Below are positions 5,873-48,534 of a stretch of 51,942 bases of DNA, piece by piece. The position numbers and the translations under genes were made by a program. This stretch comes from Phycisphaerae bacterium (GTDB taxonomy: Bacteria; Planctomycetota; Phycisphaerae; Tepidisphaerales; Tepidisphaeraceae). The first letter of the stretch is position 1. Each line of letters starts with the position of its first letter. The stretch spans positions 1 to 51,942 of the forward strand of contig JAICIO010000035.1 in assembly GCA_025924315.1 (NCBI GenBank), given 5' to 3'. Below the pieces are notes generated by a model. It was given only the letters and a program-made list of their open reading frames with translations. It did not search any database and had not been told where the DNA came from.

Positions 5873-5893
5873 GATGATGCTCGATGACTTTTC

Positions 5894-5966
5894 GTAGGGT
5901 CCGCTTCAGCGGACCGGTTACGCGCTTTCGAATGAGAATAACCGGTCCGCTGAAGCGGACCCTACA
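5894..5966. repeat. Palindromic element, family A copy 3
   Basis: GTAGGGTCCGCTTCAGCGG arm, loop containing CTTTCGAATG, and the reverse-complement arm ending CCCTAC. The loop core reads in the same direction as copy 1. It lies between the parvulin gene's stop and the start of the aminotransferase gene, so it occupies the aminotransferase promoter side. Confidence 0.93.
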
Positions 5967-5993
5967 AATACATTTTCGATCGGAAACGAAACG

Positions 5994-7243: not shown

Positions 7244-7323
7244 AACCACAGATGAACACAGATGAACACGGATCAGATCCGAACCGGCAATCGATCCGTG
7301 TTCATCTGTGTTCATCTGTGGTT
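7244..7323. repeat. Inverted repeat family E (CCACAGATGAACACAGATGA)
   Basis: Near-perfect 30-base arms built from a tandem word (GATGAACAC repeated) around a 20-base loop. It lies between the divergent parvulin and aldolase genes and ends only 14 bases before the aldolase ATG. It therefore covers the leader and ribosome-binding area of the aldolase transcript and could fold over it. Confidence 0.93.
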
Positions 7324-8351: not shown

Positions 8352-8989
8352 CGGTTCGCGCCTATCCCGCAATTGGGCTGGTTGAGCTGAACAGCTTCGC
8401 GGCGAGCCTCGCGGCGCTCGATGCGATGGAGAAGGCCGGCAATATCGAGTTGCTGCAGGCGGAGATCAACGATCTCGGCGGAGTGCTGCTGAAGTTTTCC
8501 GGAGACACCGCGGACGTCGATGCCGCGCTCGCGGCGGCCCGCTCGATCGCCGATCAGATGCACACGCGTATCGTCTCCGATGCCCTCCGCGCTCCGACGG
8601 CCGGCGCCGAGTTCGCGGCGCTCGCCAAACCCGAATTCAGCCCGCTGATCGAACAAGACGTCGTTCACACGCCGAACTGGCAAACACTGAAAGAAATCAA
8701 CATGAGCGAAGAAGCCCCTTTTGCAATCGGCATGATCGAAACCCAGGGATTCACCGCCGTCATCGAAGCGATCGACACCGCCTGCAAGGCTGCGAATGTC
8801 GACGTGCTCGCCCGCGAAAAGCTCGGCGGCGGGTACATCACGGTCCTGATCAAAGGGGACGTCGCCGCCGTCAAAGCCGCCGTGAACGCCGGCAAAGAAC
8901 GCCTCGAGCAACTGGGCTTAGGCAAACTCATCGCCGCCCACGTCATCCCGCGCCCAAGCAAGTCCGTCCTCGCGCTATTGCCCAAGTAA
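8348..8989 (+). CDS. Tandem-domain bacterial microcompartment shell protein (BMC-T type)
   Basis: A 213-residue protein with two bacterial-microcompartment domains. Domain 1 (about 7-90) begins [20 protein letters not shown]; domain 2 (about 121-213) begins [20 protein letters not shown], continues through the predicted pore segment [15 protein letters not shown] and ends with the typical [14 protein letters not shown]. Such tandem proteins form pseudo-hexameric trimers that tile shell facets. No iron-sulfur Cys is seen at the pore. The only start that includes domain 1 without invading the aldolase is TTG 8348, overlapping the aldolase stop as TTGA. An internal ATG at 8702 would give domain 2 alone, the size of a single-domain shell protein. 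No other shell gene is in the window, so this is an outlying shell gene or part of a reduced compartment. Confidence 0.83.
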
Positions 8990-8997
8990 AACAAGGA

Positions 8998-9074
8998 GAT
9001 TGTCCACGAAGGGCGCGAAGGGACACAAATGAATTGCTTTTCTTCGTGCTCCTTCGTGTCCTTCGTGGACAATC
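8998..9074. repeat. Inverted repeat family F (GATTGTCCACGAAGG)
   Basis: Arms of GATTGTCCACGAAG and its complement, with partly complementary CGAAGGGACAC/GTGTCCTTCG inside. It fills the gap between the convergent shell-protein and esterase genes and directly abuts the esterase stop codon. It may serve as a two-way terminator. Its arm words resemble family G (13815-13920). Confidence 0.88.
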
Positions 9075-10001
9075 TTATTTTGTTGCCTTGGAAGCCGGTT
9101 GCGTCGTCGCGGCTTTGAGATGCTGGTTGAAGAACTCGAAGATCATCATCAGATTCTTCGGCGTGCCGAATTGAGGCCCACCGTGACCGGCGCCCTCGAT
9201 GAGCTCCAGGTGTGATTCCACGCCCGCCTTCTTCAGCGCCTCATCCAGATACTCACTCTGCTTTGGATTCACCAGCGGATCTTTCGTGCCCTGCATGATC
9301 AGGCAGGGCGCATCGTCCTTCGTCACATACGTCACCGGGCTCGCCTGCTTCGCCTGATCGAGATGCTCGCTCAGCGGCCCGCCAAATAGATGCGTCAGCG
9401 CATCGCCCGCGACGTGCTCGTCGTGAATCTTCGTCAAATCGGTCGGCCCAAAGAGATCCACGACGCATTGCACGCGACTCGAAAACTCCGGATTGCCCTC
9501 GTCGCCCTCGAGTTCCTTCACGTCACCGCTCGTTCCCAGCAGCGCCACGAGATGCCCACCCGCGGACGCGCCCCACGCACCAATGCGATCGGGATCGATG
9601 TGGTACTCCTCCGCGTGCGCGCGAAGAAACCGAACGGCCGCCTTGCAATCGTAAATCTGCGCCGGCCAGATCGCTTCCTGCGTCAGACGATAATTGATAC
9701 TCGCGACGACGTAACCGAACCGCACGAACCCAACGCCCGGATTCGGCGCCTTGTCGCCCGCCTGCCACCCGCCGCCGTGGACGCAGATGATCAGCGGCAA
9801 GGGTTTGGTTGGATTTGGTGGGATCGCAATGTCCATCGATTGTGACTTCCCGCCGCCTTTCACGTACGGCACATCGCGAAGAACCGTTGTTCCCGCGGGC
9901 AGCGCATTCGGCCGCGGACGCGTCGTTGGCTTCGTCTGCGCGGTCGCCGTCACGAAGGTCGAAGCAAATAGCACCACCGCAATGGAATGTCTCTTGAGCA
10001 T
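9075..10001 (-). CDS. Secreted alpha/beta-hydrolase (esterase/lipase-like)
   Basis: A 308-residue exported esterase. A signal peptide (MLKRHSIAVVLFASTFVTATA, cleavage near AQ) precedes a Pro/Thr-rich stretch and an alpha/beta-hydrolase domain. The oxyanion-hole motif is HGGGW (75-79), the nucleophile elbow GASAGG places Ser146, an acidic residue lies in GTKDPLVNPKQ, and the catalytic His is in EGAGHGG near the C-terminus. The HGGG form and overall length resemble acetyl-xylan and feruloyl-type esterases of the BD-FAE/hormone-sensitive-lipase groups. Its place 10 bases downstream of the ceramidase-like gene indicates co-transcription with the sugar-acid operon, which fits removal of acyl groups from a polysaccharide or glycolipid substrate (inference). 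Confidence 0.85.
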   Translation of the reverse strand: MLKRHSIAVVLFASTFVTATAQTKPTTRPRPNALPAGTTVLRDVPYVKGGGKSQSMDIAIPPNPTKPLPLIICVHGGGWQAGDKAPNPGVGFVRFGYVVASINYRLTQEAIWPAQIYDCKAAVRFLRAHAEEYHIDPDRIGAWGASAGGHLVALLGTSGDVKELEGDEGNPEFSSRVQCVVDLFGPTDLTKIHDEHVAGDALTHLFGGPLSEHLDQAKQASPVTYVTKDDAPCLIMQGTKDPLVNPKQSEYLDEALKKAGVESHLELIEGAGHGGPQFGTPKNLMMIFEFFNQHLKAATTQPASKATK

Positions 10002-17147: not shown

Positions 17148-17243
17148 GCACGAACCTTTGTAGCCGCGAAGGCTTTAGTCGCAATCCTGATCGCGAAAAA
17201 AGTGCTGATTATTCCAGGCGCTTGAGCAACCGGCGCTGTGCTT

Positions 17244-17318
17244 CGTGTAGCCGGCGAGCTTGCTCGCCGTTTTCTTTTGGTTGGAAAGGCAACGGCGAGC
17301 AAGCTCGCCGGCTACACG
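17244..17318. repeat. Inverted repeat family H (perfect 28-base arms)
   Basis: Arms begin CGTGTAGCCGGCGAGCTTGC and are perfectly complementary over 28 bases, with a 19-base loop. It occupies the gap between the upstream pseudopilin gene and the symporter gene (both minus strand). Each arm also contains a smaller palindrome (GGCGAGCTTGCTCGCC), giving a cruciform-like double structure. Confidence 0.95.
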
Positions 17319-17330
17319 CAGGTTTCCGTG

Positions 17331-24668: not shown

Positions 24669-24687
24669 TCGTTGCGCGAGCAGACTT

Positions 24688-24761
24688 GTAGGGTCCGCTT
24701 CAGCCGACCGGTTATTCTCCGTTCGAAAAGCAAATAACCGGTCCGCTGAAGCGGACCCTAC
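24688..24761. repeat. Palindromic element, family A copy 4
   Basis: GTAGGGTCCGCTTCAGCC arm (one mismatch from consensus, GCCGACC) with complementary arm ending GGACCCTAC. The loop holds CCGTTCGAAAAGCAAATAACC across the arm boundary, matching the reverse complement of copy 1. It sits between the convergent cytochrome and amidohydrolase genes. Confidence 0.92.
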
Positions 24762-24773
24762 GAAGAGCCGGGA

Positions 24774-28771: not shown

Positions 28772-28856
28772 AACCCGCGGAGCTGCGCTCCGCCGCTAAA
28801 TAATGAAGACGAGCGCTCGTTTCTCTAGTTAGCGGCGGAGCGCAGCTCCGCGGGTT
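28772..28856. repeat. Palindromic element, family J copy 1 (intergenic)
   Basis: Perfect 26-base arms beginning AACCCGCGGAGCTGCGCTCC around a 33-base loop (85 bases in all). It lies between the cytochrome gene and the downstream hypothetical secreted gene. The second copy is at 44521-44604, inside a coding sequence. Confidence 0.95.
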
Positions 28857-43831: not shown

Positions 43832-45052
43832 TCAGATCCCGATCGGATGATCCAGCCCCGTTCCGATCCGAATCGCGCTTTCCCGAAACGACTGGACCTC
43901 AAGCAGATGTGGCGCGATGTGCGTCCGAATAAAGCGGGAACCAGCGGATTCTCCCCGCGCCATCCACGTGAGCCTTCTGATCGACCGAACGACTTTTTCA
44001 TCGACCGGCCGACGCAGCAGGTCATACCGATCCATCTCGCCGCGCGAAACGAGCTGGCTGAAGACCCACGCATCTTCGATCCCCAGATTCATCCCCCGCG
44101 CCCCAATCGGCGAGTGAATGTGCGCTGCATCCCCCGCCAGAAACACGCGACCTTTTTGCAATCGCTCCGCAATCCGGTGTGCAACTTTGAATTTCGATTC
44201 CCACACCGGAGGCCCCGCCTGCTTCGAATCCGGGAGGAGCGAAATCGGATTCGGCAAATTCGCGATCACGCGCCACAGTTTCGGCCCCGCGGATTCTTCA
44301 CGCTTGTCCGCCACCACGCGAATGCAGAACACAAATCCGCCGTCGTCCAAAAACCAAATCTGCGCGCGTTCTTCATCGAGCGAAGTCTCGAGCGGCACAT
44401 CCGCGAGATACCATTCGCGATCGACGGAGGAGCCGTCGAACGACAGGCCAACCGTTTCGCGCGCGCGACTGTGTGCGCCATCCGCACCAAGCATCCACGG
44501 GCAGACGTAAGATTCCGTCGAACCCGCCGAGCTGCGCTCCGCCGCTAAATATTCAGACGACGGCTCCGCGCCATAGTTAGCGGCGGAGCGCAGCTCCGCG
44601 GGTTCTTCGTTTCCGCGCAACACGACTTCAACACAACCCGTCTCATTACGGCAGGACGTCAACTCCACGTTTCGTTCAACGCGACCACCCGCGGCTTCCA
44701 ACGCCTCCTCGAGCAACTTTTCGGTCACCGCCTGCGACAGCGCAAGCATGAACGGGTAACGCGGATGAATTCCGTCGAACGAGATCTCGCCCGAATGCTT
44801 TGAGCCGAACCGAAACTGCCCACCATGAATCCGCACGCCGCGCTCGAGCATTTTCTCCGTCACGCCGGTCGGCTCGAGAATCTCCATCGTCCGCGGATTC
44901 ACCGCCAGCGCCCGCGATTCGACAGACGGATGCGACCGACGTTCAACAATCCGCACCCGCACCCCACCGCGCGCCAAAAACAACGCCGCCGCCAACCCCA
45001 CCGGCCCGGCGCCAACAATCAGAGGAAGTTCCTTTTGCTGAGCGACAACCAT
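43832..45052 (-). CDS. FAD-dependent aromatic monooxygenase (PheA/TfdB type) with in-frame repeat insertion
   Basis: A group A flavin monooxygenase of about 406 residues. The FAD dinucleotide fold is LIVGAGPVGLAAALFLARGG, the second motif is MLGADGAHSRARETVG, and the ribityl-binding GD motif is VFLAGDAAHIHSPIGARGMN. Such enzymes hydroxylate aromatic substrates using NAD(P)H and O2. Between the second strand region and the DG motif there is a 28-residue stretch (EPAELRSAANYGAEPSSEYL followed by AAERSSAGS) encoded by palindrome J copy 2, in frame and without stop codons. Whether the enzyme tolerates it is unknown. ATG 45052 is preferred; a GTG at 45070 is also possible. Confidence 0.83.
   Translation of the reverse strand: MVVAQQKELPLIVGAGPVGLAAALFLARGGVRVRIVERRSHPSVESRALAVNPRTMEILEPTGVTEKMLERGVRIHGGQFRFGSKHSGEISFDGIHPRYPFMLALSQAVTEKLLEEALEAAGGRVERNVELTSCRNETGCVEVVLRGNEEPAELRSAANYGAEPSSEYLAAERSSAGSTESYVCPWMLGADGAHSRARETVGLSFDGSSVDREWYLADVPLETSLDEERAQIWFLDDGGFVFCIRVVADKREESAGPKLWRVIANLPNPISLLPDSKQAGPPVWESKFKVAHRIAERLQKGRVFLAGDAAHIHSPIGARGMNLGIEDAWVFSQLVSRGEMDRYDLLRRPVDEKVVRSIRRLTWMARGESAGSRFIRTHIAPHLLEVQSFRESAIRIGTGLDHPIGI
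44521..44604. repeat. Palindromic element, family J copy 2 inside the monooxygenase gene
   Basis: 84 bases, arms AACCCGCCGAGCTGCGCTCC and complement of AACCCGCGGAGCTGCGCTCC (one mismatch, CGCC versus CGCG). The arms match copy 1 (28772-28856) almost completely, while the loops differ. Its length is a multiple of three and the minus-strand frame has no stop, so the host gene stays open. Confidence 0.95.
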
Positions 45053-45149
45053 CCCCTCATTTACTCCCACGCGTTTGCTTTTGTCGACGTCTGAGTTGCG
45101 GCAAGAATCGATCTAACCGTCGCAGCAACATTCAAGGCCGGGATATGCG

Positions 45150-46275: not shown

Positions 46276-47589
46276 GTGGCAGTCGCACAAAAAACAATTT
46301 CCAAGGAAGTTACCCTCGCGGGACCCGGGCTTTTCTCGGGTGAGCCCGCGACGTTGACCTTTGTCCCCGCCGAGCCGGGAGCGGGGATCACATTCATCCG
46401 CGAGCAGGATTCTCGGGTCGCGACGATTCCGGCGCACATCAGCAATGTGATGAAGCTGCCCCGCCGCACATGTCTGAAAAACGGCACGCTGCATATTGAA
46501 ACGGTCGAGCATTGCCTCGCAGCGCTAGCGGGGCTCGGCATCGATAATGCGACGGTGAAGCTCTCCGGCGGGAAAGTTGGCGAGCTTCCCGGCATCGACG
46601 GCAGCGCCCGTCCGTTCGTCGATGCGATCAACGAAGCCGGCATCGTCGAACAAGACCGCGAGCAGACGCCGCTGATCATCAAGAAGCCGGTCGAAGTGAG
46701 TGTGAACGGCGCGCAGATCGCCGCCCTTCCCGGGCCGACCGATCACCTCGAAGTCATTTACAGTTTCGAAGCCAAAGAGCTCGGCAAGCAGACGATTTGC
46801 TTCAACCTCGGCGACGACGATTTCGTCAATTCGCTCGCGCCCGCCCGAACCTTCGTCTTCGAAAAAGAAGCCCAGGCCCTGCGCGATCGCGGGCTGGGTA
46901 CGCATCTCAGCCCGAAAGACCTGCTCGTGATTTCCGATCACGGGCCGATCGACAACACGTTTCGCTTTCCCGACGAATGCGCGCGGCACAAGGCGCTCGA
47001 TCTGATCGGCGATCTGTATCTCGTCGGCCGGCCGTTGCGCGGACGCCTCGTCGCGCACAAGAGCGGGCACGAGATGAATCACATGCTCGCGCGCAAACTG
47101 CTGCAGCAGGACGAAACCAGCTGGCGGCAGAGCCTCGTCAATCGCGAAGGCGCGCTCGATATCCGCCGTATCCAGCGTATCCTGCCTCACCGATATCCGA
47201 TGCTGCTCGTCGATCGCGTGCTCGAAATTCAAGGCGACCAGCGCGCGATCGGAATCAAAAACGTCACCTTCAACGACATTTTTTTCCAGGGTCATTATCC
47301 CAATACTCCCATCATGCCGGGCGTTTTGATCGTGGAAGCGATGGCCCAGCTCGGCGGCATCCTGCTCAGCCAGAAGCTCGAACACACCGGCAAGCTTGCG
47401 GTGCTATTGAGCATGGATAAGGTGAAGATGCGCCACGCGGTGGTGCCTGGGGACCAACTGATTCTCGAAGCCGTGACCGTGCGCGTGAAAACCCGCACCG
47501 GTCACGTGCGCTGCAAGGCTTTTGTGCAAGATAAACTGGCCGCCGAGGCCGATATTAAATTCATGCTCGTCGACGCGGAGCCCGTGTAA
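46276..47589 (+). CDS. lpxC: LpxC-FabZ fusion: UDP-3-O-acyl-GlcNAc deacetylase / 3-hydroxyacyl-ACP dehydratase
   Basis: A 437-residue bifunctional enzyme for lipid A and fatty acid synthesis. Residues 1-290 are LpxC with zinc ligands H79 (TVEHCLAAL), H238 and D242 (DECARHKALDLIGDL), base E78 and H265 (KSGHEMNHM); these are the same residue numbers as in E. coli LpxC. Residues 297-437 are FabZ, with H340 (FFQGHYPNTPIMPG) and E354 (IVEAMAQLGG). Such fusions are known from Bacteroidetes and occur in planctomycetes. The start is GTG 46276, just after a TATAAT box. lpxA follows after 3 bases, so they are co-translated. Confidence 0.93.
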   Translation: MAVAQKTISKEVTLAGPGLFSGEPATLTFVPAEPGAGITFIREQDSRVATIPAHISNVMKLPRRTCLKNGTLHIETVEHCLAALAGLGIDNATVKLSGGKVGELPGIDGSARPFVDAINEAGIVEQDREQTPLIIKKPVEVSVNGAQIAALPGPTDHLEVIYSFEAKELGKQTICFNLGDDDFVNSLAPARTFVFEKEAQALRDRGLGTHLSPKDLLVISDHGPIDNTFRFPDECARHKALDLIGDLYLVGRPLRGRLVAHKSGHEMNHMLARKLLQQDETSWRQSLVNREGALDIRRIQRILPHRYPMLLVDRVLEIQGDQRAIGIKNVTFNDIFFQGHYPNTPIMPGVLIVEAMAQLGGILLSQKLEHTGKLAVLLSMDKVKMRHAVVPGDQLILEAVTVRVKTRTGHVRCKAFVQDKLAAEADIKFMLVDAEPV

Positions 47590-48411: not shown

Positions 48412-48437
48412 ATCCAACCAATTTGCAGCGGTCTGTT

Positions 48438-48512
48438 GTAGGGTCCGCTTCAGCGGACCGGTTATACCCCCGTTTGAAAAGCACGTAACCGGTCCGCTGA
48501 AGCGGACCCTAC
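48438..48512. repeat. Palindromic element, family A copy 5
   Basis: GTAGGGTCCGCTTCAGCGG arm and complement ending GGACCCTAC; loop CCCCGTTTGAAAAGCACG, same orientation as copy 4. It lies 26 bases after the lpxA stop codon, between lpxA and the converging delta-60 protein gene. Confidence 0.93.
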
Positions 48513-48534
48513 AAAACCGTGAATTATCCAATCC

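Follow-up and report, generated by a model that had tools for sequence, protein, structure and literature searches.

A probable REP-dimer-like repeat inserted in frame in an FAD-dependent monooxygenase gene of a Phycisphaerae bacterium

Introduction

How does a palindromic repeat that is dispersed through a bacterial genome come to lie, without a break in the reading frame, in the middle of an enzyme gene? The question is raised by a 51,942-nucleotide stretch of DNA from a Phycisphaerae bacterium (contig JAICIO010000035.1 of assembly GCA_025924315.1, hereafter the window), in which a first-pass annotation described a palindromic element inside an FAD monooxygenase gene and a matching intergenic copy. 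The explanation to which the data lead, with a probability of about 0.85, is that a dispersed, non-autonomous REP-dimer (REPIN-like) element has been inserted into this gene.

Results

The element and its host gene

The host gene (43832 to 45070, minus strand) encodes an FAD-dependent monooxygenase (PF01494, FAD_binding_3) of 412 amino acids, with a GTG start and an ATG six codons further on. An 84-nt inverted repeat, located at 44521–44604 on the minus strand, occupies nucleotides 467–550 of its coding sequence in frame; the open reading frame passes through the element without a stop, as had been claimed. Two REP-like hairpins in inverted orientation make up the element, which encodes about 28 amino acids around PAELRSAANYGAEPSSEYLAAERSSAG, SAANYGAEPSSEYLAAER being one peptide predicted from the insert; the stretch EPAELRSAANYGAEPSSEYL indeed stands ahead of DGAHSRARE in the host protein. 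In gene direction, the 5′ arm (AACCCGCGGAGCTGCGCTCCGCCGCTAA; 44577–44604, minus strand) forms a hairpin of its own, GCGGAGC-TGC-GCTCCGC, and the 3′ arm (TTAGCGGCGGAGCGCAGCTCGGCGGGTT; 44521–44548, minus strand) carries one substitution, CGGCGG for CGCGG; the arm mutation noted earlier as CGCCGAG versus CGCGGAG is real. The arms flank a spacer (44549–44576, minus strand) whose sequence and length vary across the family. Taken as long inverted-repeat arms, 44520–44552 and 44573–44605 are 94% complementary, and the fold of the whole element, a single long hairpin, is far more favourable than those of shuffled sequences (RNA −65.8 kcal/mol, z −9.0; DNA z −8.1).

The second copy in the window is intergenic (28772–28856, minus strand). 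Re-examination of the window bears out the first-pass annotation as to the coordinates and sequence of the element, the match of both arms to the intergenic copy, and the lengths of 84 and 85 nt. A 20-nt core has four matches in the window, two in each element, where 0.03 are expected from shuffles. The weight laid on 84 versus 85 bases is without meaning, as family members span 67–90 nt; 84 nt is no special coding length but simply the length seen most often among family members.

Comparison with uninterrupted homologues, proposed earlier as a check, was carried out with sequences taken from 392 genomes of the phylum; two truncated rows of the alignment lie outside the insert position. Every homologue spanning that position, including some that are 46–50% identical, has a gap of 26–28 residues opposite PAELRSAANYGAEPSSEYLAAERSSAG, and none among them bears the segment, whose presence there had been named as counting against an insertion. 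Cutting out exactly the 84 nt raises the homologue-HMM score from 366.3 to 378.1, which beats every control deletion of the same size; the nearest control (376.7) overlaps the insert. Relative to the closest solved structure, rifampin monooxygenase 5vqb, there are 34 query residues where the structure has three, which places the insert after one conserved block and ahead of the block that holds the DG motif. In the homologue alignment, this position is a turn of variable length. It presumably corresponds, in this fold, to a beta-hairpin turn just ahead of the conserved DG motif. A single-sequence structure prediction of the monooxygenase (mean pLDDT 32.7) was set aside. The data contain no close relative in which this locus is free of the element, the nearest homologues being about 50% identical.

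A dispersed family of hairpin dimers

The window's own genome (6.57 Mb in 262 contigs, 97% complete) was searched with the arms. Allowing up to two mismatches, 42 and 53 matches were obtained, against none for a reversed-pattern control; a pattern with free stem positions found 102 arms, which cluster into about 63 places. This number of places, together with resolvable homologues that lack the segment, upholds the view that a repeat of mobile type has been inserted into a coding sequence. The 37 full dimers measure 67–90 nt (mode 84, 12 of 37), with 17 divisible by three, and a covariance model built from them re-detects dimers with E-values to 4e-21. Their alignment shows near-invariant arms around a variable spacer, with the consensus AACCCGCGGAGCTGCGCTCCGCCGCTAACTA-spacer-TATTTAGCGGCGGAGCGCAGCTCCGCGGGTT and the family ends AACCCGCGG...CCGCGGGTT.

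Each dimer consists of two inverted arm units of about 28 nt, each itself a hairpin, on either side of the spacer; many dispersed copies of a short (20–40 nt) hairpin unit, as expected of REP sequences, are present. Dimers with unlike arms reveal which structure is maintained. Counted arm by arm, the local hairpin pairs are held in 261 of 264 variable pairs, and the long stem is broken in 229 of the 264. Compensatory changes within the arm hairpins include AGC/GCT, TGC/GCA, TCC/GGA, and ACC/GGT. The unit that is kept is thus the arm, as in REP sequences. Arms end in TTAG on the inner and AACCC on the outer side. Neither a GTAG nor a CGTC tag occurs at a unit end in the alignment of 37 dimers, and the family is for this reason kept out of both superfamilies; we file it as a REP-dimer-like element outside them. 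A search of 150 relatives turned up, in three other genomes of the same family, a few copies, nearly all with a GTGC/GCAC stem. At four intergenic copies (L084, L088, L098, and L117), a coding-like open reading frame ends exactly at the end of the element, its stop codon (TAA or TGA before ACCC) being supplied in part by the terminal AA or A of the repeat.

No target-site duplication was found in the 37 full copies, shared flanks amounting to at most 2 nt. Together with the behaviour of unlike arms, this agrees with mobilisation of a REP dimer in trans by a Y1 (HUH) transposase. Ten Y1_Tnp genes are present in the genome, and none of them (0/10 in the 262 contigs) was found to be flanked by the monooxygenase-type repeat, so that the mobiliser is only inferred. 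Several Y1_Tnp genes (L035, L036, L037, and L039) are bracketed by short hairpin repeats of their own; it seems, therefore, that several independent transposase–repeat pairs exist in this genome.

A second inverted-repeat family, whose outer ends carry GTAG (GTAGGGTCCGCTTCAGCGGACCGGTTAT), is much larger, with 759 arms genome-wide at up to three mismatches; its copies in the window lie at 196–279, 1454–1533, 5891–5968, 24685–24764, and 48435–48515. Two arms of this family, about 690 bp apart, enclose an IS200-like Y1 transposase gene at L032 (positions 1280–2100; contig C56). This locus was dropped as a candidate REP-flanked RAYT, as on inspection it reads as an IS200-like tnpA between second-family arms; either an IS200 element has inserted into a second-family dimer, or the gene is the mobiliser of the second family. 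Further hairpins of different sequence occur in the window at 17241–17321, 8981–9091, and 7244–7323 (arms of 31–49 nt, 76–100% complementary). A 437-residue open reading frame at 46276–47589 is, judged by eye, presumably an LpxC-FabZ fusion.

In-frame copies in other genes

At least four further genes of the genome carry the repeat in frame, each with homologues that lack it, so that in-frame insertion recurs in five unrelated genes, the monooxygenase included. In a GT4 glycosyltransferase (L096; C37:37973–38056), the element encodes KPAELRSAGNYGEGASAAYLAAERSSAG within the variable linker between two Rossmann domains. A GH2 mannosidase-like gene (L108; C64:11811–11890) contains it in the opposite orientation (APRSSAPPLNGETGASIVSGGAQLRG); this insert, 36 codons in total (108 nt, about 25 nt beyond the element), is absent from a 76% identical homologue and from a paralogue in the same genome. 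At L126 (C73:10032–10120), the copy keeps the frame and lies in a predicted signal peptide, between its n- and h-regions (MSSRALVAS-insert-FICAFVVITCLAA); the homologue in a relative, G020, has an uninterrupted signal peptide. UbiD (L210) contains a single arm, DEPAALRAAAKQ, with 26 residues where E. coli UbiD has three. In G020, the stretch DLAPERSSGG between regions 2 and 4 of an ECF sigma factor is probably a degenerate single arm, to judge by its sequence. Long open reading frames through the element at L079, L100, L106, L107, L110, and L127 were rejected as genes for want of a Pfam match, and at the shikimate kinase locus L089 the element lies upstream of the likely start.

For a random strand and phase, the frame stays open in 9% of full copies (20/222). 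The most permissive strand-frame is open in 11 of the 17 copies divisible by three and yields PAELRSAANY...YLAAERSSAG. The monooxygenase and GT4 copies are read in this frame, as are, to judge by the arm peptides, those of UbiD and the sigma factor; altogether, four of six in-gene copies use it. Five of the roughly 63 places are in genes, counting only open frames that read through an element, versus roughly 50 that blind insertion would place there at an assumed coding density of about 85%. These numbers point to selection against genic insertion or to intergenic sites being preferred. A shaping of the arms that often makes genic insertion survivable, by which the repeat would generate a recurrent, tolerated linker peptide, is considered quite unlikely.

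Discussion

Several other explanations of the monooxygenase segment have to be weighed against insertion of a REP dimer. The variable length of the turn at this position would suit a normal variable part of the enzyme family that merely resembles the repeat. The DNA, however, is a near-perfect copy, in both arms, of a family with about 63 places, and homologues spanning the site do without it; a normal-domain origin was rejected on the homologue alignment, and its probability is practically negligible. A gene that was inactivated recently and is open by chance would suit the site of the insertion, shortly before the conserved DG motif, and there is no close relative in which selection after insertion could be tested. 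Yet all 412 codons are free of stops and frameshifts, codon-position G+C is alike on both sides of the insert, the FAD-binding, DG, and GD motifs are intact, and in several other genes, too, the element stands in frame in a loop or linker, all of which makes a pseudogene unlikely.

The nature of the element and the fate of its transcript can be judged in the same way. In its size, its terminal inverted repeats, and the dispersal of its copies, the repeat would equally suit a MITE derived from a DDE-type insertion sequence. Such an element should not, however, lack a target-site duplication in 37 of 37 full copies, nor would it need arms that are each a hairpin kept by compensatory changes, and this assignment is very unlikely. 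Finally, a hairpin as stable as this one at the RNA level (−65.8 kcal/mol) could in principle be removed from the mRNA or bypassed, so that the peptide is never made. No Rfam family, and therefore no known self-splicing element, was detected in the window, and removal would require neither a length in frame nor an open frame, both of which nevertheless hold in the genes examined; we regard it as highly improbable.

For the REP dimer, the following course of events is proposed. The element would move as a single-stranded hairpin through the action in trans of a Y1/HUH transposase (RAYT or IS200-like), a mode of movement expected to leave no target duplication. An insertion into a gene would survive only if its length is a multiple of three, its frame is free of stops, and its site is a loop or linker; few frames, chiefly that of PAELRSAANY..YLAAERSSAG, would qualify. 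The inserted segment would then be translated as a tolerated extra turn; we make no claim that the host protein benefits from it. The repeat in the monooxygenase gene is likely to be becoming protein, as the first-pass annotation had put it. Few palindromic repeats are known to lie in frame in coding genes; the present family adds to them one that stands outside the GTAG and CGTC classes, and it offers several datable insertions in unrelated enzymes. As insert-free homologues exist for each gene, these insertions form a natural set for determining which protein positions tolerate an insertion of 28 residues, and the same set serves to ask whether mobile hairpins contribute protein sequence.

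Among known systems, the REP dimers of the GTAG and CGTC superfamilies are likewise dispersed short hairpins arranged as inverted dimers with spacers of 20–100 bp, the spacers being variable, as here, in dimers with the tags inside; they also occur in frame within open reading frames, coding for 20–30 residues, with peaks in Opitutus terrae (PVC group), where the GTAG cases are most numerous, and in Rickettsia conorii, whose RPE-4 and RPE-6 are CGTC repeats (Di Nocera et al. 2013, PMC3733652). In contrast to these, the present family ends in TTAG inside and AACCC outside, and the search for a REP-flanked transposase belonging to it was negative. REPINs similarly comprise two inverted REPs around a spacer that disperse as one unit; their definition comes from Pseudomonas, where the REPs are of GTAG type and a RAYT is linked to them, whereas the transposase link of the present family is only inferred (Bertels and Rainey 2011, PMC3116915). 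The Rickettsia palindromic elements (RPEs) resemble it in being a palindromic family that lies in frame in unrelated genes and encodes a recurrent peptide (Ogata 2000 and 2002, summarised in PMC10969869). Compared by description, RPEs are about 150 bp long and belong to an obligate intracellular lineage, in contrast to elements of 67–90 bp in a 6.6-Mb genome. The repeat family described here is new, and the phenomenon it exemplifies, palindromic repeats in frame within genes, has been described before in Rickettsia and a few other bacteria.
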